Source: Actinomycetota bacterium
GTDB lineage: Bacteria > Actinomycetota > Acidimicrobiia > Acidimicrobiales > MedAcidi-G1
DNA length: 64,000 nucleotides
Assembly (NCBI GenBank): GCA_014381945.1
Contig: JACNKQ010000030.1
Coordinates: 1-64,000 of the forward strand
Direction of reading: 5' to 3'
Shown here one piece after another: positions 37,632 to 52,083 of the stretch. How positions within the stretch are numbered: the first letter of the stretch is position 1; the number at the start of each line of letters is the position of its first letter. Both the position numbers and the translations under genes were made by a program. The notes below the pieces were generated by a model. The model saw only the letters and a program-made list of their open reading frames with translations. It did not search any database and had not been told where the DNA came from.

Positions 37632-38243
37632 CTAACGGGGGGCGACTTCGAGCCCGGCTGCGTTGAGCGCTGCAGGGCCGATGGCCCCTTCCCGGAGGAT
37701 GCGGGCGGGCTCGACAGTGAGGTCCACGACGGTCGACGGAACACCGTTGCACAACCCACCGTCGATGGCCAGCAGGTCGCCACCCAGGCCGGCGGCGGCC
37801 TCGACGGCGGTCGTCGGCGTGGCTTCGCCGGACCGGTTGGCGGACGTGGTTGCGAGCGGGCCGACCTCGGCGGCCAATGCTCGGATCAGGTCGTGGTCGG
37901 GGCAGCGCAGGCCGACCGTGTCGAGGCGGTCGACCCCGGGACCGAGGTTGAGTTCGGCTCCGGGCGCTCGACGGACGACGACCGTCAGGGGTCCCGGCCA
38001 GAAGTCGGCGAGGATGCCGAGATCTGCATCGGTGAGGACTGCGGCCTGGGCCGCATCGGCCACGAGGACCGCCATCGGCTTCGCACCGTCGCGTCCCTTG
38101 CGTCGGAAGATGTCCGCCACCGCTGCCGCGTCGCCGACCGGTGCCGCCACTCCGTAGACGGTGTCGGTGGGGAGCACGACCGGCCGGCCGGCACGGAGTT
38201 CTGCGGCCGCAATCGCCACATCGTCGACGACGTGTCCGCTCAT
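37632..38243 (-). CDS. tsaC: L-threonylcarbamoyladenylate synthase (TsaC/Sua5 family)
   Basis: A 203-aa enzyme that makes threonylcarbamoyl-AMP from threonine, bicarbonate and ATP for the t6A37 modification of ANN-decoding tRNAs. LPTDTVYGVAAPV, the KGRDGAKPMAVLV strand, FWPGPLTVV and the ATTSANRSGE loop mark the YrdC domain. It lacks the C-terminal Sua5 domain. Its start overlaps the prmC stop by 4 bp, a conserved pairing. Confidence 0.93.
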   Translation of the reverse strand: MSGHVVDDVAIAAAELRAGRPVVLPTDTVYGVAAPVGDAAAVADIFRRKGRDGAKPMAVLVADAAQAAVLTDADLGILADFWPGPLTVVVRRAPGAELNLGPGVDRLDTVGLRCPDHDLIRALAAEVGPLATTSANRSGEATPTTAVEAAAGLGGDLLAIDGGLCNGVPSTVVDLTVEPARILREGAIGPAALNAAGLEVAPR

Positions 38244-39109
38244 CCCGGCATCCTGGCGACGAGCGCCCGATCACGGCCGGTCAGGTCGGGACGGACATCC
38301 ACATCGACGAGGCCTCCTGCCGATGCCCGCTCCGCCAGCCGATCGGCCTGGCGGGGGTCGAGTTCGAGGACGAGGGCGCCACCGGGGGCGATCCAGGTGG
38401 TGGAGCCGTCGACGAGCAGGTCGAGGTCCTCGGTTCCCTCGGTGCCGGGCACCAGGGCCCCATGGGGTTCCCAGTCGATGACCTCGGGTGGCAGACGCTC
38501 GCCGCCCCCCACGTAGGGAGGGTTGGACACAAGCAGGTCGAGTCGGCCCCTCAGGCCGTCGGGGAGGGCATCGAACCAGGGGCCTTCCGCCAGCGTCACC
38601 CGCCGGGCGGGGCGTCCGAGGCCGGAAAGGTTCGCCCTGGCAACGGAGAGGGCCTCCGGGGAACAGTCGGTGCACACAACGCGGGCAGCGGTCCGCTCGG
38701 CGGCGATCGACAGGCCGATGGCCCCGGAGCCGGTGCCGAGGTCGACTACGAGCACCGCCCCGGAGCGGCCGGCGGCGATCCGGTCGAACTCGTCGAGGGC
38801 GTGTCCGACAACCGCCTCGGTCTCGGCCCGCGGGATCAACACGCGCGGGTCGACCATCAGGTCCAGGGTCCGGAACGACCAGTGGCCGAGCACGTACTGC
38901 AACGGCTCCCCTGCCAGACGGCGTCGCAGAAGCTCATCGTGGTGGGCCATGCAGCGCCGGGTCACGGGTTCGTCCAGATCGGTCCCACCGGCCTCCTCGA
39001 CGATCCAACGGGCCTCGGCGATCGGCAACCCGGCCTCCTCGATGCGGGCGATGGTCTCCGGCAGGACCTCCCGCCAGGCGATCGTGTCGGCGTCGCCCGC
39101 CTCAACCAT
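38240..39109 (-). CDS. prmC: Peptide chain release factor N5-glutamine methyltransferase
   Basis: A 289-aa SAM-dependent methyltransferase that modifies the GGQ glutamine of release factors. EPLQYVLGHWSF and RVLIPRAETE are the substrate-domain motifs. DLGTGSGAIGLS binds SAM. NPPY (in LVSNPPYVGG) is the catalytic motif. The start at 39109 makes the ATG overlap the prfA stop, as expected for these two genes; an alternative ATG at 39133 exists inside prfA. Confidence 0.93.
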   Translation of the reverse strand: MVEAGDADTIAWREVLPETIARIEEAGLPIAEARWIVEEAGGTDLDEPVTRRCMAHHDELLRRRLAGEPLQYVLGHWSFRTLDLMVDPRVLIPRAETEAVVGHALDEFDRIAAGRSGAVLVVDLGTGSGAIGLSIAAERTAARVVCTDCSPEALSVARANLSGLGRPARRVTLAEGPWFDALPDGLRGRLDLLVSNPPYVGGGERLPPEVIDWEPHGALVPGTEGTEDLDLLVDGSTTWIAPGGALVLELDPRQADRLAERASAGGLVDVDVRPDLTGRDRALVARMPG

Positions 39110-40163
39110 CGGCCAACTGTCGGATCCGCTCATCGGCCATCAGCCCGTCTGTGACCTCGTCCAGATCACCGGCCAGGACCCGGTCGAGCTTGTAGAGAGT
39201 GAGCCCGATTCGGTGGTCGGTGACCCGGTTCTCCTTGTAGTTGTAGGTACGGATCTTCTCGGACCGACCACCGCCTCCGACCTGGTCCTTCCGGGCAACC
39301 GAGGCCTCGTCGCGCTGGCGGTCCTGCTCGATCTGGAGGAGGCGGGAGCGCAGCACCCGCAGTGCCTTGACCTTGTTCTGGAGCTGGCTTTTTTCATCCT
39401 GCATGGCGACTACCAGGCCCGTGGGCAGGTGGGTGACGCGCACAGCGGAGTCGGTGGTGTTGACCGACTGTCCACCCGGCCCGGACGACCGGTAGACGTC
39501 GACCTGCAGGTCGCTGTCGTCGATCTGGACATCGACCTCGTCGGCCTCTGGCAGCACGATCACGGTCGCCGACGAGGTGTGGATACGGCCCTGCGACTCT
39601 GTGACGGGCACCCGTTGCACGCGGTGCACGCCGCCCTCGTGCTTGAGCCGGGCCCAGGCGTCGTCGCCCCTGATGAGGAACGAGACCTCGGCGAAGCCGC
39701 CCATGTCGGAGTCGCGGGCACCGAGCGGCTCGGTCATCCACGAATGGGAGACGGCGAACGCCTGGTACATGTCGTGGAGGTCGCGGGCGAAGAGGTTGGC
39801 CTCCTCGCCACCCTCTGCGCCCCGGATCTCGACGATGACGTTTCGACCGTCGTTGGGGTCCTTTGGCAGCAGCAGGATCCGGAACCGCTCCTCGAGGTCG
39901 GCGACCGATGCCTCGAGGTCGGCGATCTCGCTCTGGAGCTCGTGGTGGTCGTCGCCCTCGGCGTCGGCGACCATCTCGCGTGCCACCTCGAGGTCGTCGT
40001 GGGCCTGGCGGAGCGGGCGCCCCACGGTGAGAATCTCCTCGAGTTCCTTGAAACGTCGGCCTACCGACCTGAGCAGGTGCTGGTCGCCAATGACCTCGGG
40101 GTCGGACAGGCGCCCCCCGACCTCGGTGAACTCGGCCTCGAGGGCCTCGACTCGCTCCTGCAT
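39102..40163 (-). CDS. prfA: Peptide chain release factor 1
   Basis: A 353-aa RF1 that recognises UAG/UAA. AEGGEEANLFARDLHDMY and HEGGVHRVQRVPVTESQGRIHTS belong to domains 2/4. The catalytic GGQ lies in SSGPGGQSVNTTDSAVR and the tail has RTYNYKENRVTDHRIGL. It overlaps prmC by 8 bp. Its substrate for methylation (the GGQ Gln) and the modifier prmC are thus encoded together. Confidence 0.97.
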   Translation of the reverse strand: MQERVEALEAEFTEVGGRLSDPEVIGDQHLLRSVGRRFKELEEILTVGRPLRQAHDDLEVAREMVADAEGDDHHELQSEIADLEASVADLEERFRILLLPKDPNDGRNVIVEIRGAEGGEEANLFARDLHDMYQAFAVSHSWMTEPLGARDSDMGGFAEVSFLIRGDDAWARLKHEGGVHRVQRVPVTESQGRIHTSSATVIVLPEADEVDVQIDDSDLQVDVYRSSGPGGQSVNTTDSAVRVTHLPTGLVVAMQDEKSQLQNKVKALRVLRSRLLQIEQDRQRDEASVARKDQVGGGGRSEKIRTYNYKENRVTDHRIGLTLYKLDRVLAGDLDEVTDGLMADERIRQLADG

Positions 40164-40215
40164 GCGGCTCAGGGTAGCGGTGGGGCCGCGCCGCCCTGAG
40201 GTGGATGGCGGGTGC

Positions 40216-41208
40216 TCAGGCCCATCCGCCATCGATGCCGACGATCGTCGCCGGAACGGCGAGGCGGGCGACCACCTGCTCGACAGGGGGCAGGATGTCC
40301 CTCGGCGGTACCACCACGAGCACCCGGTCCGGACGTTCGCGCAGCACGAGGTCGGCGGTGGTCGGCACGAGGTCGGTATCGACCCCGACGGAGCAGACGA
40401 CCAGCACCCGTTCGTCGTCGGGAGCGGTCCCCATGGCAGGGGCCGGTGCAGGTGCGCGCAGGCCTGCACGTTCCACGGCCGGGTCGACGGCCGTCAGGTC
40501 GGAGAGTGCGATGCGCCCGGGGTCGGCCAGCAGGTCATGGCGTAGCCACCGTTCTCGGGCGAGGCTGGCCAGCGGATGGGCTCCGGCACCCTCACGGCGC
40601 TGCGCCCTCACCTGGTCGGCCGCAGCGGCAAGGGACTCGGTCGTCGGCAGGTCGCCGTGAAGCAGGGCCGAGGCCTCCCGGTCGAAGCGGCCCACACCGG
40701 TTTCGAAGCCGGAGTCGGTGGAGCGAGCCACCTCGAGGCCGAGCACCTCACCACGCCACACACCGTGCTCAACGACCGGATCGACTCCCGCTCCCCGGCA
40801 GAGGTCCTCGAACCCGTCAGGGGCCGGTGGCGGCGCCCCTTGCGACAGAATCGCTGCCGGCACTGCGGCCTCGGAACCCGCACCGGCGACGAGGCGAACC
40901 TCGGGCACCGGATCGAATGCGGTCGCCCGCCGGGCAGCGATCGCCGCAGCGTCGGCAGTGTCGTGGAATAGCACGAGGCGGGCGGCGTCGTGGCCGGCGG
41001 CCAGCAGCAGTGCCCGACCCAGCGCACGCCCGGGTGTGCCGTCGCCTGCAAGGGCAACGACGAGGTCGGCCTCGATGAATGCCAATCCTCCGGCGAGGGT
41101 GACCGGATCGCCGCCACATGAAACGCCGAGGTCCGTGGCCAGGGCGCGCAACCTGGCGCCGAGGAGGGAGGTCCGCTGCCCGGGATCGAGGCTCACGGTC
41201 GGTTGCAT
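40216..41208 (-). CDS. Conserved protein of unknown function between rpmE and prfA
   Basis: A 330-aa soluble, Ala-rich protein. I do not recognise a family. Two Rossmann-like patches are visible: ADLVVALAGDGTPGRALGRALL (residues about 48-69) and ERVLVVCSVGVDTDLVPTTADLVL near 265. No signal peptide, cysteine cluster or membrane helix is seen. Its position in the translation/termination run suggests co-transcription rather than function. It ends 53 bp before prfA begins. Confidence 0.65.
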   Translation of the reverse strand: MQPTVSLDPGQRTSLLGARLRALATDLGVSCGGDPVTLAGGLAFIEADLVVALAGDGTPGRALGRALLLAAGHDAARLVLFHDTADAAAIAARRATAFDPVPEVRLVAGAGSEAAVPAAILSQGAPPPAPDGFEDLCRGAGVDPVVEHGVWRGEVLGLEVARSTDSGFETGVGRFDREASALLHGDLPTTESLAAAADQVRAQRREGAGAHPLASLARERWLRHDLLADPGRIALSDLTAVDPAVERAGLRAPAPAPAMGTAPDDERVLVVCSVGVDTDLVPTTADLVLRERPDRVLVVVPPRDILPPVEQVVARLAVPATIVGIDGGWA

Positions 41209-41236: not shown

Positions 41237-41491
41237 TCAGCCCTGGCGGCGCTTGCCGTAGCGGCGCTCGAAGCGCTCGACGCGGCCGGCGGTGTCGACG
41301 ATCTTCATGGTGCCCGTGAAGAACGGATGGCTGGCCGACGAGATCTCGACCTTGGCGAGCGGGTACTCGTTGCCGTCGTCGAGGGTGATTGTGTCACTGG
41401 TCTGCATGGTGGACCGGGTGAGGAACAGGGTGCCCTCGGATACGTCCTGGAAGACCACTTCGCGGTACGTGGGGTGGATGTCGGGCTTCAT
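41237..41491 (-). CDS. rpmE2: Large ribosomal subunit protein bL31, type B (zinc-independent)
   Basis: An 84-aa bL31. [20 protein letters not shown] and [13 protein letters not shown] match the type B form, which has no CxxC zinc-binding cysteines. In many bacteria type B replaces the zinc form under zinc shortage, and there it sits in a Zur regulon; here it is in the standard position after rho, so it may be the main copy. The gap to rho is 64 bp. Confidence 0.9.
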
Positions 41492-41555
41492 GGCGAGTCC
41501 AGTCTGCGGTTCGCGACGGGCGTCGGCAACCCGCTGCAGGGAATGGTTCGGGCAA

Positions 41556-43223
41556 TCAGCCCAGGTTCGGGCCCTTGGCGATCTCCGCCAGGAACTCATC
41601 GTTGTTGTTGAAGGTCTTGAGCCGGTCTATGAGCAACTCGAGGCCAGCGGCCCCGCTGTTGCCCTCATCGCCGATGAGCCCGTTGAGGACCCTCCGCAGC
41701 TTCCAGACCTGGTTGAGCTGCTTGCGCTCGAAGAGGAGTTCCTCGTGCCTGGTCGACGAGGCGTTGACGTCGATGGCCGGATACACGCGCCGTTCGGCGA
41801 TGCGCCGGTCGAGGCGGAGCTCCATGTTGCCGGTGCCCTTGAACTCCTCGAAGATGACCTCGTCCATCTTGGATCCGGTCTCGACGAGCGCCGTGGCGAG
41901 AATGGTCAGCGATCCGCCCTCCTCGACGTTGCGTGCCGCACCGAAGAACTTCTTCGGCGGGTAGAGAGCGCCGCTGTCGACACCACCGGACATGATCCGA
42001 CCGGTGGCAGGGGCGGCCAGGTTGTAGGCCCGGGAGAGGCGGGTGATGCCGTCCAACAGGATCACGACGTCCTGGCCGGATTCGACCATGCGTTTGGCCC
42101 GTTCGATGGTGATCTCGGCGATGTGGGTGTGCTCGCCGCTGGGACGGTCGAAGGTGGAGGCGGCAACCTCACCGTGCTGCAGCCAGCGGCGCATGTCCGT
42201 GACCTCTTCAGGGCGCTCGTCGACCAGCAGGACGATGAGCTTGACCTCGGGGTTGTTCACCTCGATCGACCGGGCGATCTGCTTCAGGATCGTGGTCTTG
42301 CCGGCCTTCGGCGGCGAGACGAGCAGACCACGCTGGCCCTTGCCGATCGGACACAGCAGGTCCACGATGCGGGCGGTCATGTTGGACGGGTCGTCCGGGG
42401 TTTCCATCTTGAGCTGCTCGTCGGGGAACAGCGGCGTGAGGTCCTCGAAGCGGGGGCGTCCCTTGGCGTCTTCGGGCTTTCCGCCGTTGACGGTGTCGAT
42501 CCGCAGCAGCGCCGGGTTCTTCTCGCTCCGGTTGGCCGGACGGGAGGCGCCGGTGAGGTGGTCGCCCTTGCGCAGACCGAACTGGCGGGCCTGCTTGACC
42601 GACACGTAGGCATCGGCCTTCGACGGCTTGTAGCCGCTGGTACGCAGGAACCCGTAGCCCTCGTCGCGCATGTCGAGGTAGCCCTCGACCTCGACGGGAT
42701 CGCCGTCCCATTCCTCCTCCGGTCCGTCGTGCTGGCCTCGACCGCGGCGACGGCGACGGCGGTTGCCGGGCTCGCCGCCCTGTTGGCCCTGTTGGCCCTG
42801 TTGGCCCCGGCCACCCTGTCGGTCGCGGTTGCCCTGCTGGCCATGTCGATCGGTCCTGGATTCGAGCTTGTCGGGCGAGTCGCCCTGCTTGTCGCCTGAC
42901 TTGTCCTCGGGCTTGGCGCCTGACTCGTCCTCGGGCTTGTCGTCGGCAGATGCCCCTGCTTCCGGTGCGGGGCCCTCCTCGGCGACGGCTGCCTCCCATG
43001 CGGCGGGTGGCTCCTCGGCTGGATCTTCGGCGGAGTCCTCGTCGGCAGTTGCACCAGACCCGTTGGAAGACGTCTCGATGCCGGCCAAGTCGAGGATCAG
43101 GTCGACGATCTCGGCCTTGCGGGCCCGTGAGCCCGGCTTGCCGCCCAGGGCGGTGGCAATCGTGGTGAGCTCGTCGCGGTCCTTGCCCTCGAGGGCATCG
43201 CGTTCGAGTTGGGTGGAGTCCAT
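41556..43223 (-). CDS. rho: Transcription termination factor Rho
   Basis: A 555-aa hexameric RNA helicase. The N-terminal 48 residues form the Rho_N domain. A long acidic then Arg/Gln/Gly-rich insertion follows (about 50-165; includes [10 protein letters not shown] and [11 protein letters not shown]), as in high-GC Actinobacteria. Then come the RNA-binding domain [20 protein letters not shown], the Walker [10 protein letters not shown], Walker [16 protein letters not shown] and the Q/R loops. A 9-bp x3 repeat (42780-42806) encodes the QQG run. The 270-bp upstream space probably contains its promoter. Confidence 0.97.
42780..42806 (+). repeat. 9-bp x3 tandem repeat in the rho insertion
   Basis: CTGTTGGCC repeated three times, in frame with rho on the other strand, where it encodes Gly-Gln-Gln units. 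It lies in the disordered insertion, so length change should be tolerated. Confidence 0.75.
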
Positions 43224-43493
43224 GTCTCAGACACCTCATTTTCATATTCTGCGGTTTTCCGCGGGCGGAATTGCCCTTCATCGGTTCCGACCGGATCGGC
43301 CGAAAGATCACTCACGGGGAGTGGGGTTGTGGTACAGGATCCGACCGGGGCCACCTGACGAGGTGCCCACCGGAATCGGGGGAAGTACCAGCCTGTCGAC
43401 GGGAAGAACGGGTCCGTCAGTCCCCGCCCGACGACCCGCACATCGTACCGAAGGCAGACGCGCTGTCGCAACCACCCTCGCAAAGCCCCGCAG
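43224..43493. promoter_or_regulatory. Gene-free region upstream of rho
   Basis: A 270-bp gap, the largest between genes here. No convincing ORF, tRNA or small RNA is seen. On the rho strand a short stem, GCGG-TTTT-CCGC, lies at 43251-43262, about 28 bp before the start. A long leader would fit rho autoregulation known in other bacteria, but no specific element can be identified. Confidence 0.3.
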
Positions 43494-44630
43494 TCATCGG
43501 CCTTTCGAGCCGTTTCCGAGCAACAGGGTGCTGCACACGAGCGCCACGACGGCCAACAGGACGGTCGGCGTCCAGGAGCCCGTCAGGTCGTGGGTCACGC
43601 CGCCGACGACCGGTCCGATGCCTCCGGCCAGGCCGACCGCCAGACCCTGCAGGCCCATCAGCAGTCCGAGGTCGGGGGCGTCGAAGCGGGCACGTGCGTA
43701 GATCGCCTGGAGCGGGCTGGTGGCGCCGAGCGATGCGCCGGCCACGACGGCGTAGGCGATACCGGCCGGCACCGTGCCGACGAGCAGGAACGCGACGCCC
43801 ACGGCGCTCACCGCGTAGGCGAGTCGCAACAGCGGGTCGGCACCGAAGCGCTCGACGACGCCCATCAGGCCGACGCGCCCGAACAGCTGCCCGAAGCCGC
43901 GCAGGCCGCCGATGGCGCCGGCGGCGCCGAGGCCCAATCCGGCGCCGGTCATGATCGGCACCTGGTAGCCGAGGATCGTGGTGTACGCCAGCCAGACCAG
44001 AAAGAAGACCAGCAGCATCCGGCGGACGGCCGGGCGCCCGAGTGCACTGCGCATCGCCTGCCAAGGGTTCTTCGAAGCGGCCTCCCCGGACCGGCCGGAC
44101 TCGCCGAGCGTGACCGTCAGGAGGGCACCGGCGATGGCCAGGAGCGCCAGCACCCGACCGGTACTTCGCCACCCCCAGGCTTCGACCATCCAGGCGGTCA
44201 TCGGGAGGTAGATCGCACTGCACAGGGCGCCGATCATCGTCAGGCGGGCGATTGCCAGGTCGGGTCGGTCCGGCCGGAGCCGAGCCGCCGCTGCCGTGGT
44301 CACGTGGTAGAAGCCCGTCGCTCCGACGATCCCGGCCCCGAGCGCATAGAGGGCTCCGAAGACGACCTGATGGGTCGCCCAGGTCGCCGCCAACAATGAG
44401 CCGCCTCCCACCACCGCCTGGAGGAGGAACGGTCCCCGGCACCCGTAGCGGTCGAGGAGTCGACCCCCGACGACCGAGGCACCTCCGTTGATGACGAATC
44501 CGGCGCCGAAGGTGACCCCGAGCATGGTCGTCCCCCATCCGACGTCGTCGTGGATCGGACCGATGAGCACGCCGAAGGAGTACAGCCAGGAGCCGTAGGA
44601 GGTGATCGTGACGATGCCGAGAACCGCCAC
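43494..44630 (-). CDS. MFS transporter
   Basis: A 378-aa permease with 12 hydrophobic helices. Between helices 2 and 3 lies GGRLLDRYGCRGPF. It resembles the monocarboxylate/oxalate-formate type of MFS carriers. The GTG at 44630 is the only sensible start that does not run into the divergent ArsI-like gene. The two genes face away from each other over 94 bp, so they may share a regulator and a substrate, such as an arsenical. Confidence 0.75.
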   Translation of the reverse strand: MAVLGIVTITSYGSWLYSFGVLIGPIHDDVGWGTTMLGVTFGAGFVINGGASVVGGRLLDRYGCRGPFLLQAVVGGGSLLAATWATHQVVFGALYALGAGIVGATGFYHVTTAAAARLRPDRPDLAIARLTMIGALCSAIYLPMTAWMVEAWGWRSTGRVLALLAIAGALLTVTLGESGRSGEAASKNPWQAMRSALGRPAVRRMLLVFFLVWLAYTTILGYQVPIMTGAGLGLGAAGAIGGLRGFGQLFGRVGLMGVVERFGADPLLRLAYAVSAVGVAFLLVGTVPAGIAYAVVAGASLGATSPLQAIYARARFDAPDLGLLMGLQGLAVGLAGGIGPVVGGVTHDLTGSWTPTVLLAVVALVCSTLLLGNGSKGR

Positions 44631-44724
44631 GCCGTGTCTGCCTGCCGGCCTGCCTGCTGGTGGTGAGTGCGCGATTCCGTAGTCTGGAGGGAGACGACCT
44701 TGTCCCCGACACCCGGAGGTTTCC

Positions 44725-45144
44725 ATGAGCCGCCTGCAACTCGCCATCGACGTCAGCGACCTGGACGAAGCCATCGACTTCTACACCCGGCTGTTCGCCA
44801 CCGAACCCGCCAAGGTCCGACCCGGCTACGCCAACTTCGCCATCGACGACCCGCCGCTGAAGTTGATCCTGTTCGAGGACACCGACGGCGGCGGCACACT
44901 CAACCACCTGGGCGTCGAGACCGAGACCGCCGCAGAGGTCGTCGCCGCAGAGGCCCGCCTCTCGGGTGCCGGCCTCGAAACCACCGGAGTCGGCGATGCC
45001 CTGTGCTGCTACGCCGACAAGACCGAGACCTGGATCCACGCTCCCGACGACATCCGTTGGGAGTGGTATGTCAAGACCGGCGACAACGAACAGTTCGACA
45101 ACGTCGACCTCGAGACACCTGCTGCCACGCCCTGCTGCGGCTGA
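44725..45144 (+). CDS. ArsI/CadI-like glyoxalase-fold (VOC) protein
   Basis: A 139-aa VOC-fold metal enzyme. QLAIDVSDLDEAIDFYTRLF starts the first module. LNHLGVETE carries a metal histidine, and CCYADKTETWI holds the vicinal cysteines that bind As(III) in ArsI C-As lyases and Cd in CadI. EWYVKTGD supplies the metal glutamate. The tail ends in another Cys pair (TPCCG). GGAGG lies before the ATG. It could cleave methylarsenite or sense metal; no arsR gene is adjacent. Confidence 0.8.
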   Translation: MSRLQLAIDVSDLDEAIDFYTRLFATEPAKVRPGYANFAIDDPPLKLILFEDTDGGGTLNHLGVETETAAEVVAAEARLSGAGLETTGVGDALCCYADKTETWIHAPDDIRWEWYVKTGDNEQFDNVDLETPAATPCCG

Positions 45145-45170
45145 GGCCGTCGCCCACCGCCCGCTCCTGA

Positions 45171-46316
45171 TCAGAGCGACAGGAGCGTGGGCATCAGGGA
45201 GTGGCCCGGCACCAGTGGGGCATTGGCCACGCCCGACTCGGTGAACACGCCGCCCGGGCCGTCGACCTCGGAGTCGACCAGCAGGTAGGGAACCGGGTCG
45301 GGAGTATGGGTGCGGGTTGTGAGTGGCGTGGCGTGGTCGGGCAGCATCAGCAGCCGCCACGGACCCAGCGCATCGAGGCCCGGGACCAGGTCGGCGAGGA
45401 TGCGCCGGTCCCAGTGCTCGAGCGCCTCGACCTTCTCGGCGACGTCGCCGGCGTGACCGGCCTCGTCGGTGGCCTCGACGTGGATGATGAACAGGTCGAG
45501 CCCGTCGGCCAACTTCTTCAGGGCGATGTCGCGCTTGCCCTCGTAGTCGGTGTCGTACCAGCCGGTGGCTCCGGGGATGTCGCAGATCTCGAGGCCGGTG
45601 AGTACCCCGATGCCGCGCACGAGGTCGACTGCGGTCACCAGGCCGGCCTCGACGCCATGGGCGTCGCGGAACGACGGCAGTTGAGGCTGGAAGCCCTGCC
45701 CCCACAACCAGATCTGGGTTGCCTCGAGGTCCGAGGCGGCGAGCACGTCCCTGGACGCCTCCATCAGTTCGTTCAGCGGGCCACCCATCGGCCCGGCGGG
45801 CACAACTACCTGCTCACCGGAGAGGTCGTGGGGCGGGGTGCATTCGGCGTCGATCCACTCCCCCGGGGCAATCATGGCGTGCCGGTAGCTCAGGCCCGGA
45901 TGGAACGACACGCCGTCGCCCCCGAGTTGCCGGTCGATCTCGGCGATCGCCTCGGCGGCCGGTTCCGACGGTGGGTTGCCGCCCGCATAGTCGAGCATCA
46001 CGCCGTCGGCCGACACCACCACGAGGTTGCAGCGGAATGCGGTCTGTTCGGGACGCAGGGACAGGCCCATCGCCGCCGCCTCGATCGGGGCCCGGCCCGT
46101 GTGGTGCAGGGCAGGATCGAACCCGAAGATCGACATGTTGCCGACATCGCTGCCCGGCGGCATGCCCTCGGGGATCACGGCGGCCCGGCCGACGGTCGCC
46201 CGGGCGGCCAGGGCATCGAGGTTGGGCGTGTGGGCGGCCTCGAGCGGGGTGCGTCCGTCCAACTCGGGAACCGGCAGGTCGGCACAGCCGTCGGGAACAC
46301 AGATCACGTACTTCAC
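45171..46316 (-). CDS. ApgM-like alkaline-phosphatase-superfamily protein; proposed homoserine kinase
   Basis: A 381-aa protein of the cofactor-independent phosphoglycerate mutase (archaeal type) group. YVICVPDGCADLP has the first metal Asp (D9). GSDVGNMSIFGFDP (55-68) contains the phospho-acceptor serine. IIHVEATDEAGHAGD and LPDHATP carry the remaining metal ligands. It follows thrC on the same strand by 78 bp. Members next to hom and thrC have been proposed, from genome context, to act as homoserine kinase in organisms lacking ThrB; no GHMP-type thrB is present here. A plain phosphoglycerate mutase role remains possible. Confidence 0.82.
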   Translation of the reverse strand: MKYVICVPDGCADLPVPELDGRTPLEAAHTPNLDALAARATVGRAAVIPEGMPPGSDVGNMSIFGFDPALHHTGRAPIEAAAMGLSLRPEQTAFRCNLVVVSADGVMLDYAGGNPPSEPAAEAIAEIDRQLGGDGVSFHPGLSYRHAMIAPGEWIDAECTPPHDLSGEQVVVPAGPMGGPLNELMEASRDVLAASDLEATQIWLWGQGFQPQLPSFRDAHGVEAGLVTAVDLVRGIGVLTGLEICDIPGATGWYDTDYEGKRDIALKKLADGLDLFIIHVEATDEAGHAGDVAEKVEALEHWDRRILADLVPGLDALGPWRLLMLPDHATPLTTRTHTPDPVPYLLVDSEVDGPGGVFTESGVANAPLVPGHSLMPTLLSL

Positions 46317-46394
46317 AGGGCACTCATCCTGCCAGCATCCGAGTTGCCTGCTGCGACCACATCCGGTCCCTCAGGCAGGGCATCAGGTGGCGCA

Positions 46395-47780
46395 TCAGGC
46401 GACACAGGATTCGACGTGCGCCTGTATCGCCGCCAGGTCGTTGGGCAGGCGGGTGCAGCGCTCGGGCCGGTCCAAGAGGTCACCCAGGCGCTCGGGCAAC
46501 CCGGGACGCACGCCCGTGGCCGACTCGACGGCGTCGGGGAACTTGGCCGGATGGGCGGTTGCAAGTGCCACCATCGGCACCGAGGGATCGCGGCGGCACC
46601 GGCGGGCGGCCAGCAAGCCGACGGCGGAGTGCGGATCGAGGACCACGCCCGACCGGTCGGCCTCATCTGCGATACAGCGCATCACCTCACCGTCGTGGAA
46701 GCGGGCACCTGACCAGGCGTCGCCGAGCGTGGCATGGAGCACCGGGTCGAGGACCGTTGTGCCCGTGGCCCGGAAGTCGTCGAGCAGGGCGGACACGGCG
46801 GCGCCGTCGCGGTCGAGCAACTCGAACAGGAGCCGCTCGAGGTTCGACGACAGCTGGATGTCCATGCTGGGCGAGAGAGTGGGCACGACCTCGCCGAGGG
46901 TCATCGTGCCGCTCTCGAAGAACCGGGTCACGATGTCGTTGCTGTTCGATGCGACCACGAGTTGCGGGATGTCGAGGCCCATGAGCCGGGCGACGTGCCC
47001 GGCGAAGGCGTTGCCGAAGTTGCCGGTAGGCACCGAGAACGCAATCGGAGCCCGTCGTCCACCGAGCCGTTCGGCGGCGACGACGTAGTAGACGACCTGC
47101 GCCATGACCCGGGCCCAGTTGATGGAGTTGACCGCCGACAGGCGCATCCGCTGCCGGAACGCCACATCGGCGAACATGGCCTTCACGAGGTCCTGGCAGT
47201 CGTCGAAGGTGCCCTCTACGGCCACGTTGTGGACGTTGGCGGACTGCACGGTGGTCATCTGCCGGCGCTGCACCTCCGAGACGCGGTCGGCCGGGTGCAG
47301 GATCACGATGTCCATCGAATCGCGGTCGCGACAGGCATCGATGGCAGCCGAACCCGTGTCACCGGACGTGGCACCCACGATCGTGACGCGCTCCCCCCGC
47401 CGCCCGAGTTCGTGGTCGAAGAGGCGACCGACCAGTTGCAGTGCCACGTCTTTGAAGGCGAGCGTCGGGCCGTGGAACAGTTCGAGCAGGTGCAACCCGT
47501 CGCCGAGGTCGACCAGCGGCGTCACCTCGTCGGACTCGAACGTGGCATACGCCTCGCGGACCAAGTCGGCGAAGGCACCCGGGGCGATGGCACCCCCGAC
47601 GAACGGCGACATCACCTCGAGGGCGGTCGCCACATAGTTGCCGGGATCGCCGACGCCACCGGGCGCAAGGGTCGGCCACATTTCGGGGACGTAGAGTCCG
47701 CCGTCGGCTGCCAACCCGGCGAGCAGCGTGTCGCCGAAGCCCAGGACCGGTGCGACCCCGCGGGTGCTGACGTAGCGCAT
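46395..47780 (-). CDS. thrC: Threonine synthase
   Basis: A 461-aa PLP enzyme converting O-phosphohomoserine to threonine. It has the long N-terminal domain (RYVSTRGVAPVLGF...LAADGGLYVPE) of the class found in Gram-negatives and yeast. PLP lysine is K110 in TLAFKDVALQ. TSGDTGSAA and VPTGNFGNAFAGH bind the cofactor phosphate and substrate. The start at 47780 gives the canonical MRYVSTRG. It is 19 bp downstream of hom. Confidence 0.95.
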   Translation of the reverse strand: MRYVSTRGVAPVLGFGDTLLAGLAADGGLYVPEMWPTLAPGGVGDPGNYVATALEVMSPFVGGAIAPGAFADLVREAYATFESDEVTPLVDLGDGLHLLELFHGPTLAFKDVALQLVGRLFDHELGRRGERVTIVGATSGDTGSAAIDACRDRDSMDIVILHPADRVSEVQRRQMTTVQSANVHNVAVEGTFDDCQDLVKAMFADVAFRQRMRLSAVNSINWARVMAQVVYYVVAAERLGGRRAPIAFSVPTGNFGNAFAGHVARLMGLDIPQLVVASNSNDIVTRFFESGTMTLGEVVPTLSPSMDIQLSSNLERLLFELLDRDGAAVSALLDDFRATGTTVLDPVLHATLGDAWSGARFHDGEVMRCIADEADRSGVVLDPHSAVGLLAARRCRRDPSVPMVALATAHPAKFPDAVESATGVRPGLPERLGDLLDRPERCTRLPNDLAAIQAHVESCVA

Positions 47781-47799
47781 GGCGGACCGGGACCGGGGC

Positions 47800-49095
47800 T
47801 CAGCCGCCGAGGGCGCGCAGCACGCTGCCGACGCTGCGCACGGCGTCGAGGCCGCCCAGGTCGTCCAGCGTCGCCTGCATGTCGCGCTCACGGGCCCGGT
47901 GCGTGATGAAGGTGATGCGCGCCTCTCCGCCCTGACCTGCCTGTTCCATGGACCGGATCGAAACCCTGTGTGCGCCGAACACGGCCGCCACGCCGGCGAG
48001 CACCCCGGGCTCGTCGTCGACGTCGAGCGCCAGGTAGTAGGCGGTCTCGAGGTCGTCGATCGGCGAGATCCGGGCCCGTTCGAGCGAGCCGATGGGTGCA
48101 CCGTGGCCGCGGGCACTGTTGCCGGCGGCGTCGATGAGGTCGCCGAACACCGCCGAGGCGGTCGGACGCCCTCCGGCACCCCGGCCGTAGAGCATGACCT
48201 CGCCGACGGCGTCACCCTCGACGAAGACGGCGTTGAAGCTGTCGTTGACTGCGGCCAGCGGGTGGTCGTTCGGAACGAGTGTCGGATGTACGCGAACGCC
48301 TATCTCGTCGCCACGGCGGTCTGCGACGGCGAGCAGCTTGATGCAGTAGCCGAGGTGGGCGGCGGCCTCGATGTCGTCGGTCGTGACCCCGGATATGCCC
48401 TCGAGGTAGACGTCGTCGGCGACAACCTCGGTCCCGAAGGCCAGGGTGGCGATGATGGCGATCTTGGCTCCGGCGTCGTGTCCCTCGACATCGGCCGTCG
48501 GGTCGGCCTCGGCATAGCCCAGCCCCTGGGCCTCGGCGAGGGCGTCGTCGTAGGAGGCGCCCTCACCGGACATCTTCGTGAGGATGAAGTTGGTCGTGCC
48601 GTTGACAATGCCCATCACCCGGGTGACCGGCTCGCCGGCGAACGACTCGCGCAGCGGTCGCATGATGGGTATGGCCCCGGCCACGGCGGCCTCGAAGAGC
48701 AGGTCGACGCCGGCGGATTCGGCGATCGAGTAGAGCTCGGCGCCGTGGACGGCCAGCAGTTCCTTGTTGGCGGTGACCACCGGCTTGCCGTTGCCGAGAG
48801 CGGCCACGATCAACGTGCGGGCGGGCTCGATGCCGCCCATGACCTCGACGACCACGTCGATGTCGGGGTCGGAAACGACGGCCGCTGCGTCGGTGGTGAA
48901 CACCTCGGCCGGCAGGGGCACGCCCCTGTCGACGGACAGGTCGCGCACGGCGACCGACGCCACCTCGAAAGACAGGCCGGTGCGTCGGGCGACGACATCG
49001 CGCTGCTCGTCGACCAGCACAGCCAGGGCGGCGCCGACGTTGCCGCAGCCGAGGAGGCCCACGCGCACTGGAGATCCGGAGGAAGGGGCGTTCAT
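47800..49095 (-). CDS. hom: Homoserine dehydrogenase
   Basis: A 431-aa enzyme reducing aspartate semialdehyde to homoserine. GLLGCGNVGAA (16-21) binds NAD(P)H, VTANKELLA follows, and GIVNGTTNFILTKM with GLGYAEADPTADVEGHDAGAK is the catalytic signature. The C-terminal 80 residues (LALDVDDEPGVLAGVAAVFG) are an ACT domain, the expected site of threonine feedback inhibition. The start at 49095 matches the family. Confidence 0.96.
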   Translation of the reverse strand: MNAPSSGSPVRVGLLGCGNVGAALAVLVDEQRDVVARRTGLSFEVASVAVRDLSVDRGVPLPAEVFTTDAAAVVSDPDIDVVVEVMGGIEPARTLIVAALGNGKPVVTANKELLAVHGAELYSIAESAGVDLLFEAAVAGAIPIMRPLRESFAGEPVTRVMGIVNGTTNFILTKMSGEGASYDDALAEAQGLGYAEADPTADVEGHDAGAKIAIIATLAFGTEVVADDVYLEGISGVTTDDIEAAAHLGYCIKLLAVADRRGDEIGVRVHPTLVPNDHPLAAVNDSFNAVFVEGDAVGEVMLYGRGAGGRPTASAVFGDLIDAAGNSARGHGAPIGSLERARISPIDDLETAYYLALDVDDEPGVLAGVAAVFGAHRVSIRSMEQAGQGGEARITFITHRARERDMQATLDDLGGLDAVRSVGSVLRALGG

Positions 49096-49147
49096 GGATG
49101 TCACGGTAGCGGGAACGGTGCGCGGCACCCGTTCGAGAATCGAGGGC

Positions 49148-50419
49148 TCAAGCCTCGCGGCGGACGAGGTCCGCGTAGGTCTCTCGCCGCACGACCTCGG
49201 TCGCCTCGCCGTCGGCGACGAACACGACCGCCGGGCGCAGGACCTGGTTGTAGTTGGAGCCCATCGAGTGGCCGTAGGCACCGGTGACGGGCGTGGCGAG
49301 CACATCGCCCACCGCCAGGTCTTCGGGCACCCAGCCTTCCCGCACCAGCAGGTCGCCGGACTCGCAGTGCTTGCCGACGACCCGGACCGACCGTGGCCGA
49401 TCTGCCGAGGCGGCCCTGGGCAGGAACGTCTCGTAGCCGGACCCGTAGAGGACCGGACGGGGGTTGTCGCTCATGCCGCCATCGACGGCCACATAGGTGC
49501 GGATGCCCTCGAGGTCCTTGACCGTGCCCACCCGGTACAGCGTGACGGCGGCGGCGGCGGCGATCGCACGGCCCGGTTCGGCTGACACCCGCGCAGTGAC
49601 CCCGGCGGCTTCGCAGGCGCTGCGCACGACCTCGCCCCACTGGGTGATCGTGGGTGCGACCTCGCCCTCGACGTAGGCGACCCCGAGGCCTCCCCCGACC
49701 GAGAGTTCGGCCAGGTCGTACACGATGGCGAGGCCGGCGAGGACCTCGGCTGCACGACCCAGCGAGCCGACCTCGAAGACCTGGCTGCCGATGTGGGCGT
49801 GGATGCCGACCAGGTCGACCGACGCCGAAGCGAGCGCACGTTCGACGGCGACGGCTGCCAGGCCGGTTGAAACGGTGAAGCCGAACTTGGAGTCGTCCTG
49901 GCCGGTGGTGACGAACTCGTGGGTATGGGCCTCGACGCCGGGCGTGACCCGGAGCAGCACCCGGGGAACGACGCCTATTGCTGCATGGAGGGCGTCGAGG
50001 CGGTCGAGTTCGTCGAACGAGTCGACGACGATGAGGCCGACGCCCTCCTCGATCGCCATCTCGAGCTCGCGTTCGCTCTTGTTGTTGCCGTGCAGTACCA
50101 GGCGGTCGCCGGGAACGCCGGCGTGGCGGGCCATGTACAACTCGCCGCCGGTGGCCACATCGAGGTGCATGCCCTCCTCGACCACGAGACGGGCCATCGC
50201 CCCACAGAGGAACGCCTTGCCGGCGTATGCGACACCTTCGCCGAATGCCGCCACTGCCTCCCGGCAGCGGGTACGGAGGTGTGCCTCGTCGTAGACGAAC
50301 AGCGGTGTGCCGAACTCGACTGCGAGGTCGACGAGGTCGCAGCCGCCGATCGAGGTGCTCCCGCCGGCGCCGATCTCGGTCGTGTCTGGTAGCAGGTCGC
50401 GGGGGATCGGGCCGGCCAT
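49148..50419 (-). CDS. lysA: Diaminopimelate decarboxylase
   Basis: A 423-aa PLP enzyme, last step of lysine synthesis. PLP lysine is K68 in VAYAGKAFLCG. The HGNNKSERELEMA, SVGGGLGVAY and EPGRAIAAAA segments bind PLP phosphate, and CESGDLL contains the active-site cysteine contributed across the dimer. Its start shares one base with the argS stop, a pairing typical of Actinobacteria. Threonine genes follow 52 bp downstream. Confidence 0.96.
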   Translation of the reverse strand: MAGPIPRDLLPDTTEIGAGGSTSIGGCDLVDLAVEFGTPLFVYDEAHLRTRCREAVAAFGEGVAYAGKAFLCGAMARLVVEEGMHLDVATGGELYMARHAGVPGDRLVLHGNNKSERELEMAIEEGVGLIVVDSFDELDRLDALHAAIGVVPRVLLRVTPGVEAHTHEFVTTGQDDSKFGFTVSTGLAAVAVERALASASVDLVGIHAHIGSQVFEVGSLGRAAEVLAGLAIVYDLAELSVGGGLGVAYVEGEVAPTITQWGEVVRSACEAAGVTARVSAEPGRAIAAAAAVTLYRVGTVKDLEGIRTYVAVDGGMSDNPRPVLYGSGYETFLPRAASADRPRSVRVVGKHCESGDLLVREGWVPEDLAVGDVLATPVTGAYGHSMGSNYNQVLRPAVVFVADGEATEVVRRETYADLVRREA

Positions 50420-52083
50420 CAGGCGGCTCCCTGCTCGTCGTCCCCGTCGGCCCCGTTTCCGTCGTTCTCACTGTCGCGCCACATCTCCTCCGGGGCGTCG
50501 ACACCCAGCAGGTCGAGGGCGACGGCGATGCCGATCCGGACCGACTCGACCAGCCAGAGGCGGGCAGAAGTGAGGCCGGCGTCCACGTCGTCGCCCATGA
50601 CGCGGCAGTCGTGGTACCAGCCGTGGAAGTCGGCGGCCAGGTCACGGACCCAGGTGGTGACCTGGTGGGGGGCACGCTCACGGGCCGCCCGCAGCACCGC
50701 GTCGGGCAACTCGTGGAGGGCACGCAGCAGCAGCAACTCGCGGGGATGCCCGAGTACCGAGAGGTCGGTATCGGCCAGGGCCCGTCGCACGAAGCCGGCC
50801 TCGGCGGCCCGCCTGGCGATCGAATGGATGCGGGCGTTGGCGTACTGGACGTAGAAGACGGGGTTCTCGTTGGCCTGGCTGGCGACCAGGTCCAGGTCGA
50901 AGGTCTGGGCCGAGTCGACCGACTGCAGCAGGTAGGTGAAGCGGGCGGCATCGGGGCCCACCTCGGCCACCACCTCGGCCAGCTCGACAATGTCGCCCGT
51001 GCGCTTCGAGAGCCGCACCTCGCGGCCGTCGCGTTGGAGGTTGACCAACTGCGTGATGGCGACCTCGAGCTCGGACCGGTCGTGGCCCAGGGCTTGAACG
51101 GCGGCGTGCATGCGTGCCACGTAGCCATGGTGGTCGGCCCCCAGGACGTTCACGAGGCGGTCGGCCCTGGCGAACTTGTCTCGGTGGTAGGCGACGTCCG
51201 GGAGCAGGTAGGTGAACTCGCCGTCGGACTTGACGAGCACCCGGTCCTTGTCGTCGCCGTGTTCGCTGCTGCGCAGCCAGACCGCCCCATTCTCGTCGTA
51301 GACGGCGTCGACGGCGCGCAGGTCGGAGAGCGTGGCGTCGACGGCACCAGATCCGATCATCGACCGCTCGCTGAACCAGGTGTCGAAGTGGATGTGGAGC
51401 GACTCGAGTACCGCCTGCTGGTCCGCCAGCGCCCGCGCATAACCCCATTCGAGCGGGTCGGCGTCGGCCGGCATCTCGGCGGCCCAGTCGATGATGTACC
51501 GGCCGTTGTAGCCGCCCTCGGGGACCTCACGACCGGCTGCCCGGGCGGCCAACGAGTCGGCGAACAGTTGCATCTGGGTGCCCCGGTCGTTGATGTAGAA
51601 CTCGCGTTGCACCGGATGCCCGATGCGCTCGTAGAGCCGGGCCACCGAGTCCCCGAAGCAGGCGCCGCGACCGTGGCCGGCGTGGAGGGGGCCGGTCGGG
51701 TTGGCGCTCACGAACTCGACGATGATCCGTTCCCCCGCTCCGACTTCGTGGCGGGCGAAGCCGCCGTCGCCGGCCGCGACCACGTCGCGCAGGACATCGT
51801 GGAGCCAGGTGTCGGCCAGGCGGAAGTTGACGAACCCCGGACCCGCCACCTCGACCCCGACGACGTGCGCCGGCGGATCGGCCTCGAGCACGGCGGCCAA
51901 CTCGACCCCCAGCTCTCTGGGATTGCGGCCGGAGGCCCCGGCCGATGCCAGGGCGACATTGGTCGACCAGTCGCCGTGGTCGGGGTTGGCCGGCCGCTCG
52001 AGCTGCACGGCACCGGGCGGCTCGACACCGAGGCCGTCAAGGGCTGCCCGCACGGCCTCGATCAGGATGTCGCGCACGTCCAT
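50419..52083 (-). CDS. argS: Arginyl-tRNA synthetase
   Basis: A 554-aa class I synthetase. The N-terminal additional domain (residues 1-90) recognises the D-loop. The HIGH-type motif is HAGHG in ANPTGPLHAGHGRG. The second signature is LSKRTGD in place of KMSKS, as in most ArgRS. The C-terminal DALR anticodon domain starts near residue 440 and an acidic tail (DSENDGNGADGDDEQ) extends it. It opens the argS-lysA-hom-thrC operon. Confidence 0.96.
   Translation of the reverse strand: MDVRDILIEAVRAALDGLGVEPPGAVQLERPANPDHGDWSTNVALASAGASGRNPRELGVELAAVLEADPPAHVVGVEVAGPGFVNFRLADTWLHDVLRDVVAAGDGGFARHEVGAGERIIVEFVSANPTGPLHAGHGRGACFGDSVARLYERIGHPVQREFYINDRGTQMQLFADSLAARAAGREVPEGGYNGRYIIDWAAEMPADADPLEWGYARALADQQAVLESLHIHFDTWFSERSMIGSGAVDATLSDLRAVDAVYDENGAVWLRSSEHGDDKDRVLVKSDGEFTYLLPDVAYHRDKFARADRLVNVLGADHHGYVARMHAAVQALGHDRSELEVAITQLVNLQRDGREVRLSKRTGDIVELAEVVAEVGPDAARFTYLLQSVDSAQTFDLDLVASQANENPVFYVQYANARIHSIARRAAEAGFVRRALADTDLSVLGHPRELLLLRALHELPDAVLRAARERAPHQVTTWVRDLAADFHGWYHDCRVMGDDVDAGLTSARLWLVESVRIGIAVALDLLGVDAPEEMWRDSENDGNGADGDDEQGAA

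Follow-up and report, generated by a model that had tools for sequence, protein, structure and literature searches.

The window, the whole stretch of 64,000 nucleotides analysed here (positions 1 to 64,000 of contig JACNKQ010000030.1, assembly GCA_014381945.1, from a MedAcidi-G1 bacterium of the class Acidimicrobiia), carries on its reverse strand a threonine operon in which hom and thrC are followed by a gene for an ApgM-like protein. The hom gene (47800..49095) encodes a homoserine dehydrogenase with an ACT domain and scores 543.7 bits against NF004976 (cut-off 205), with PF00742, PF03447, and PF01842 all found on a longer open reading frame (ORF, 47800-49305). The threonine synthase gene thrC (46395..47780, 461 amino acids), whose start we set at 47780, scores 259 bits against TIGR00260 (cut-off 167.1), with Thr_synth_N and THR4_C on the longer ORF. 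The ApgM-like gene (45171..46316, 381 amino acids, GTG start) matches TIGR00306, PF10143, and PF01676, and is our candidate for a homoserine-phosphorylating enzyme. Upstream on the same strand lie lysA for diaminopimelate decarboxylase (49148..50419, TIGR01048, 418.8 bits) and argS for arginine-tRNA ligase (50419..52083, TIGR00456, 383.6 bits). The intergenic gaps are -1 nt (argS-lysA), 52 nt (lysA-hom), 19 nt (hom-thrC), and 78 nt (thrC-ApgM-like gene). A preliminary description of this DNA stated that hom and thrC are present with no thrB between or beside them; this is true, and its coordinates and gene names are correct.

The ApgM-like protein belongs to the TIGR00306 apgM subfamily, with 399.8 bits against a cut-off of 320. 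It falls below the limits of NF003242 (PRK04200, 416.8 against 426 bits; a near relative, L081, reaches 430.0), PRK04024 (214.2 against 489), PRK04135 (160.7 against 468), and NF038358 (PhpG, 167.3 against 545). An AlphaFold2 model (33 sequences) reached a predicted local distance difference test score of 96.5. Its nearest solved chain is 2zkt_B (Z 43.5, root-mean-square deviation 2.6, 353 residues aligned), and further fold matches include 3kd8_A (Z 31.8) and gpmI mutases, some with 3-phosphoglycerate (3-PG) or 2-phosphoglycerate (2-PG) bound (Z about 20-22).

The preliminary description had asked whether the genome encodes a GHMP-type thrB or another phosphoglycerate mutase. Profile searches of the window genome (G000; 2.49 Mb, 78 contigs, 97.5% complete) returned no match and no candidate for thrB (TIGR00191) and no match for thrB_alt (TIGR00938). 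The single GHMP_kinases_N match lies in the gene following an rsmA-like ORF and, judged from this neighbour and from its sequence without a family scan, reads as ispE. Homoserine kinases of the shikimate kinase type are known from DvMF_0971 of Desulfovibrio vulgaris (PMC5764234); the one shikimate kinase match in G000 (PF01202) is taken to be aroK. On these results we rejected a hidden thrB, a thrB_alt, and a second shikimate-kinase-like protein; no known homoserine kinase was found in G000, where the ApgM-like gene is the sole TIGR02535 match. A gpmA gene is present (C19:1268-1999, 324.5 bits, cut-off 81.7), so glycolysis should not need the ApgM-like gene; no gpmI was found. The combination that would have told against the preliminary description, a standard thrB elsewhere and no other mutase, is thus not what the genome holds.

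The surroundings of the gene are conserved across its class, sampled here as 198 genomes, each searched with every model. Leaving out the window, hom lies upstream on the same strand in 36 of the 39 ApgM-like loci with at least 4.5 kb of upstream sequence, and thrC likewise in 36 of 39 (exceptions G146, G110, and G060), while rho is next downstream in 34 of the 35 loci with at least 4.5 kb on that side (exception G052). The window layout is therefore not a product of chance. In other Actinomycetota the same slot is occupied by thrB. We fetched 11 thrB loci of our own choice from 11 other Actinomycetota of a phylum sample of 149 genomes, four of them from family f51. All 11 have thrC upstream, 10 have hom, and 5 have rho within 6 kb downstream; the full argS-lysA-hom-thrC-thrB order occurs in seven (L275-L278, L284, L285 with a weak argS piece, and L287). 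G075, from the same order as the window genome, has thrB between thrC and rho (TIGR00191 is the best family match at 134.6 bits, under the cut-off). Within the class, thrB stands mostly outside the operon: among the 42 of 99 thrB genomes whose surroundings were read, hom or thrC adjoins in 2 of the 37 loci with enough upstream sequence. Since they lie outside the operon, these lone genes may be later arrivals, a direction of replacement that we infer. In ten f2 genomes (L126, L134, L135, L139-L141, L143, and L145-L147) the lone thrB follows a gene whose sequence reads as trpD, a conserved pairing.

Family f51, an actinobacterial family with 11 sampled members, shows several arrangements of the slot. 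The locus holds thrB alone in G201, G263, G283, and G303, the ApgM-like gene alone in G273, G293, and G322, and an ApgM-like-thrB tandem in G215, G241, and G332, where thrB reaches 170.4, 166.0, and 201.6 bits (cut-off 168.25). Genome searches found neither gene in G312, whose locus was not fetched, and no thrB of at least 100 bits elsewhere in G273 and G293. These states look like an in-place replacement caught at several stages. G318 also carries both genes, at separate loci: one reads hom-thrB-rho, and at the other the ApgM-like gene adjoins a divergent thrC.

To describe the distribution we used thresholds chosen after the score lists had been seen, namely at least 100 bits for thrB and, for the ApgM-like clade, at least 230 bits in the class and at least 390 bits in the phylum. 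The higher phylum limit sets aside matches of 230-275 bits, which represent another paralog (four fetched, L329-L332, all with Lys at residue 281); G320, whose 274.6-bit match is partial and lies where a contig ends, is counted as a carrier with residue 281 unchecked. In the class sample, 99 genomes have thrB, 53 the clade gene, 9 both, and 55 neither (one-sided Fisher p 9e-9, relatedness ignored). The corresponding numbers for the phylum are 109, 34, 4, and 10 (p 1e-18, again ignoring relatedness); two of these 10 carry a thrB fragment truncated at a contig edge (74 bits in G257, 83 bits in G265).

A scan of GTDB contigs extended the survey to other groups through 80 loci, the best 80 of 542 confirmed candidates, and 50 of their genomes were searched (three Acidimicrobiia-like, L187, L204, and L206, and 47 from elsewhere). 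All 50 have a TIGR02535 match, 47 of them over the cut-off. None of the 50, for which completeness was not given, has thrB over the cut-off (best 69 bits); weak TIGR00191 matches (E up to 0.001) in 42 of them are taken for other GHMP kinases. Upstream hom or thrC genes occur in 22 of the 33 loci from other groups that have enough flank, and an aspartokinase gene lies within 4.5 kb in 15 of the 58 loci from these groups. Two records, L195 and L188, titled Bifidobacterium breve and Acidobacteria, show the argS-lysA-hom-thrC-ApgM-rho order of Acidimicrobiia with ApgM-like proteins 64% and 71% identical, and their names are probably wrong.

The presumed catalytic residues are kept. D9, S56, D284, H288, D327, H328, and H337 (window numbering) are found in the window protein and 12 aligned relatives, and in larger alignments these positions depart from the set through gaps in cut sequences and, once, through Thr in place of Ser56. 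The roles follow those in the cofactor-independent phosphoglycerate mutase (iPGM), with D9, S56, D327, and H328 presumably serving one metal and D284, H288, and H337 the other. A profile comparison limited to the C-terminal 87 columns matched the last five positions of the set (D284, H288, D327, H328, and H337) to gpmI, a mapping that leaves the substrate-binding arginines of B. stearothermophilus iPGM outside.

Two other positions separate the clade from its paralogs. Residue 281 is Glu in 53/53 class sequences and in 80/81 others (one gap), and residue 205 is Trp in 53/53 and 81/81, counts that are not all independent since L198, L199, L200, L201, L202, and L204 are taken to be the same contigs as class-sample loci. 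Eight further clade sequences all have Glu281, with Phe at 205 in that of G318. All ten second paralogs, of which nine are from class genomes and one comes from L254, have Lys281 and Arg205, with Glu replacing His at 288, and the archaeal mutases 2zkt and 3kd8 likewise have Lys and Arg at the two positions. Twenty more paralogs were fetched deliberately from the lower score range; all 17 with the serine and metal positions filled have Lys281, and their residue 205 is Arg (13), Lys (2), or Gln (2). Lys281 is found in 28 other paralogs and Arg205 in 23 of these. Curated mutase cut-offs were applied to two other paralogs, L171 and L327, and both pass; elsewhere "mutase" is a label. Other positions are switched too: the ten paralogs have His for N60, Asp for P161, and no acidic residue for D164. 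Arg75, Arg95, and Arg145 occur in the PRK04135-type paralogs as well. Three sequences, L325 (G357), L342 (G346), and L343 (G363, a weak match only), keep Trp205 and have lost catalytic Asp/Ser or metal residues; from these losses they are possible pseudo-enzymes.

A FastTree phylogeny of 168 rows, column 281 included, placed 139 Glu281 sequences together with L208, whose residue 281 is not readable, on one side of a single split and 28 Lys281 sequences on the other, with supports of 0.856 and 1.0 after midpoint rooting. L325, L342, and L343 (catalytic residues lost or short match) and L118 and L119 (truncated or broken) were left out. The tree thus groups the window protein with TIGR02535-scoring sequences, apart from mutase-type paralogs. 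The window gene shares two further marks of TIGR02535, the genomic link to hom and thrC and the lack of a thrB match in its genome; the thrB-less setting of such proteins is described in PMC7311316 and PMC9026213.

Taken together, these data indicate that the window gene is probably a non-orthologous replacement of ThrB encoding a homoserine-phosphorylating enzyme. This assignment of its reaction draws on the gene order, the failure to find any other known homoserine kinase, the presence of another mutase, the kept catalytic residues, and the residue switch. It draws also on the slot shared with thrB, the rare co-occurrence with thrB, the hom or thrC genes upstream in other groups, and the threonine requirement reported for BT2402 mutants of Bacteroides thetaiotaomicron (PMC7311316). 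The preliminary description held that the layout supports the alternative-homoserine-kinase proposal in an actinobacterium, and this view is backed and strengthened here, with catalysis itself inferred. The kinase idea is that of the TIGRFAM curators, who put TIGR02535 forward as a homoserine kinase (PMC7311316); new here are the Acidimicrobiia branch under the TIGR02535 cut-off, the slot common with thrB, and the residue switch. Our search of open-licence PubMed Central literature, in which the switch was not searched by name, found no further work on this protein group, neither an assay nor a report from Acidimicrobiia.

The product would be O-phospho-L-homoserine, supplied to ThrC. By analogy with the way mutases of the same fold handle phosphoglycerate, Ser56, held by two divalent metals, would take the phosphoryl group from a small donor and pass it to the homoserine hydroxyl. 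Arg75, Arg95, and Arg145 would handle phosphate, while Glu281, Trp205, and the Pro-Pro-His-Asp164 loop would suit the alpha-amino group of homoserine. The donor is perhaps phosphoenolpyruvate (PEP), 2-PG, or 3-PG; ATP is also possible.

Several observations weigh against this reading. The window protein scores 399.4 bits against TIGR02535, under the cut-off of 446.3, which 49 of the 53 class carriers also miss. We therefore file it as a diverged branch within the wider clade defined by Glu281 and Trp205 (E281/W205) and not as a strict member; what the preliminary description called a protein of the alternative-homoserine-kinase type is ApgM-like and of the alkaline-phosphatase superfamily, as it said, and sits outside that family's curated limit. 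The main objection is the presence of both thrB and the clade gene in 13 sampled genomes (9 from the class and 4 from the phylum sample, three of the latter in tandem), and because both genes are kept, the f51 tandems can also be read as speaking against simple replacement. In G273 and G293 the contig stops within 340 bases past the ApgM-like gene, so that an adjoining thrB could be cut off. The 55 class genomes with neither gene, 42 of them f22 genomes of 0.6-1.1 Mb, mean that another route must exist or that some are auxotrophs. In the other groups, both hom and thrC are missing upstream in 11 of the 33 loci with enough flank. Two published points also count against it: BT2402 was unable to complement E. 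coli thrB (PMC7311316), and the related protein Dehre_1608 has been put forward as a threonine kinase (PMC4285132). The Fisher values ignore relatedness, and 14 named control genomes gave TIGR00191 matches in 14 (11 over the cut-off) and TIGR02535 matches in 11 (2 over the cut-off), so frequently that weak matches are meaningless and the chosen score limits matter.

The strongest alternative, though an unlikely one, is that the ApgM-like protein acts elsewhere around threonine, as a threonine kinase or as a phosphohomoserine-handling or regulatory enzyme, and that an unrecognised kinase makes phosphohomoserine. It would fit the 13 genomes retaining thrB, the negative complementation result for BT2402 (PMC7311316), and the proposal, drawn from its corrinoid operon, that the related TIGR02535-like protein Dehre_1608 (CbiU) is an L-threonine kinase (PMC4285132). 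The 13 class genomes outside f22 with neither gene also suggest that other kinases may exist. Against it, the clade gene and thrB are seldom found together (9/198 and 4/149), thrB is over the cut-off in 0/50 further carriers, and the window operon has hom and thrC and no corrinoid gene. Of the nine class genomes with both genes, seven belong to family f28; the other two are G123 and G187. In f28 (twelve sampled genomes, five of them thrB-only) thrB stands alone, in most cases with its own shared set of neighbours, and in the four thrB-only operons read of the five, the hom-thrC...rho stretch has no ApgM-like gene.

The genomes with neither gene offered further observations. Among the 13 outside f22 (including G031, G122, G177, G091, G153, G173, G193, and G196), three (G031, G122, and G177; loci L120, L121, and L122) have rho directly after hom-thrC, with no intervening gene detected, implying a further homoserine kinase or auxotrophy. 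Of the 42 f22 genomes (e.g., G005, G011, and G025), 31 have a thrC match and 11 have none. A protein of the APH fold with weak thrB_alt similarity recurs in f22 genomes; we rejected it as a homoserine kinase, hom and thrC not being detected nearby in the four loci fetched. At L348, the sole such locus with ORFs listed, its neighbours were read by eye as acyl-CoA dehydrogenase-type genes.

Very improbable is the view that the gene encodes a normal glycolytic phosphoglycerate mutase and adjoins hom and thrC by coincidence. The NCBI models NF003242 and TIGR00306 bear the mutase name, and 2zkt and 3kd8 have a matching fold and matching metal residues; against this stand the gpmA of G000, the change of Lys281 and Arg205 in nearly the whole clade, and the conserved hom/thrC order. 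A different ApgM paralog tracks gpmA loss. This second paralog occurs in nine class genomes at 157-179 bits, and L171, the one scanned, passes PRK04135 (510.4 against 468). Strong gpmA (E < 1e-30) is missing in 9/9 of these genomes and in 22/189 other class genomes. Among the 53 class clade carriers, gpmA is present in 44 and the second paralog in 8, the exception being G194, which is 64% complete. The second paralog therefore behaves as a mutase, and the window-type gene does not. That thrB lies in the unassembled 2-3% of the fragmented G000 genome is scarcely credible, and we reject an assembly gap as the cause of its absence, since thrB is equally absent and the ApgM-like gene present in the family relative G169 and in G023, G035, G083, G110, G114, G145, G149, G181, and G184 of the same order.

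Returning to homoserine phosphorylation, a broader proposal, about as likely as not, is that the E281/W205 clade forms a separate class of homoserine-phosphorylating enzymes. These would be two-metal phosphotransferases working through a phospho-serine, with no nucleotide kinase fold and with a PEP-, 2-PG-, or 3-PG-like donor. They would have arisen from a phosphoglycerate mutase by a small change of the pocket (Lys281 to Glu, Arg205 to Trp, and the PPHD loop) and, in actinobacteria, would have taken over from ThrB at the same locus, with the tandems as surviving intermediates.

The assignment bears on annotation, as homoserine kinase is among the commonest apparent gaps of predicted amino-acid pathways. 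In GapMind, ThrB was of low confidence in 29/148 prototrophs, 15 of which have TIGR02535 (PMC7311316). Tools relying on the TIGR02535 cut-off would report a threonine-pathway gap in most class carriers, the 49 of 53 below it, and TIGR00306-based annotation would presumably call the gene a mutase. The f51 tandems and the two-residue switch make the context-based guess directly testable.

Several other features of the window lie around the threonine unit. Downstream of the ApgM-like gene and outside this unit are an ArsI/CadI-type VOC protein gene on the forward strand (44725..45144, NF041414, 158.5 bits, cut-off 116) and, on the reverse strand before rho, an ORF for a major facilitator superfamily (MFS) transporter (43494..44774, PF07690, 86.1 bits). 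The pair (43494-45144) also lies beside the ApgM-like gene in L118, from the same family as the window genome, and tblastn found no match to either gene in the other 99 loci searched. The reverse strand continues with rho (41556..43223, TIGR00767, 558.2 bits), which in relatives closes the thrB slot on its downstream side, and rpmE for L31 type B (41237..41491, NF002462, 129.4 bits on a longer ORF, 41237-41599). Next come an ORF whose match to prfA, encoding release factor 1, begins near residue 103 (39102..40469, TIGR00019, 468.4 bits) and prmC (38240..39133, TIGR03534, 210.4 bits), after which follows a gene for L-threonylcarbamoyladenylate synthase. A sigma-70 scan of 43000-50600 gave no promoter and an Rfam scan of the window no RNA element, results of little weight. 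An APTTTAAPTTT repeat run lies at 52.1-52.5 kb, after a short lipoprotein-like N-terminal stretch of a longer ORF. Elsewhere, the Rhodococcus rhodochrous plasmid NZ_CP027558.1 (L185) carries side by side selD, a gene for a nucleotidyltransferase, and one for a Lys281-bearing member of the ApgM superfamily, possibly a selenium- or phosphonate-related unit.

The closest known system is that of TIGR02535, named ThrB2 in gut genomes (PMC9026213) and including BT2402, which has been called an alternative homoserine kinase with its zinc residues shown to be conserved (PMC9765024). The relevant passages of PMC7311316, PMC9026213, and PMC9765024 contain no demonstration of the activity for this family. 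BT2402 itself is outside our alignment. A relative from Parabacteroides, with a thrA-ApgM-thrC operon, is 38% identical to the window protein, scores 571.7 bits against TIGR02535, shares the E281/W205 pair, and groups with the window protein in the tree split; a Parabacteroides plasmid record places thrA, the clade gene (annotated as phosphoglycerate mutase), and thrC 2-3 nt apart. The window gene differs in lying in an actinobacterial argS-lysA-hom-thrC-(thrB)-rho cluster and not in a thrA or asd-hom operon. With the archaeal-type mutases (PH0037, 2zkt; T. acidophilum, 3kd8; PRK04024) it shares the fold and the aligned serine and metal motifs, whereas their Lys281 and Arg205 are Glu and Trp in the window protein. 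The PRK04135 bacterial ApgM-type mutase belongs to the same superfamily, at about 30% identity, but its type of paralog has K281/R205 and Glu288 and is found where gpmA is absent (9/9). Dehre_1608 is alike in being proposed to phosphorylate a hydroxy amino acid, a function proposed only (PMC4285132), and unlike in its corrinoid setting. PhpG, the CMP-phosphonoformate:3-phosphoglycerate transferase, is a superfamily member that, by the name of its model NF038358, transfers between two molecules. GHMP ThrB, finally, fills this slot of the operon in relatives and presumably serves the same step of the pathway, yet it belongs to a different family, the GHMP kinases, and gave no TIGR00191 match in the window genome.

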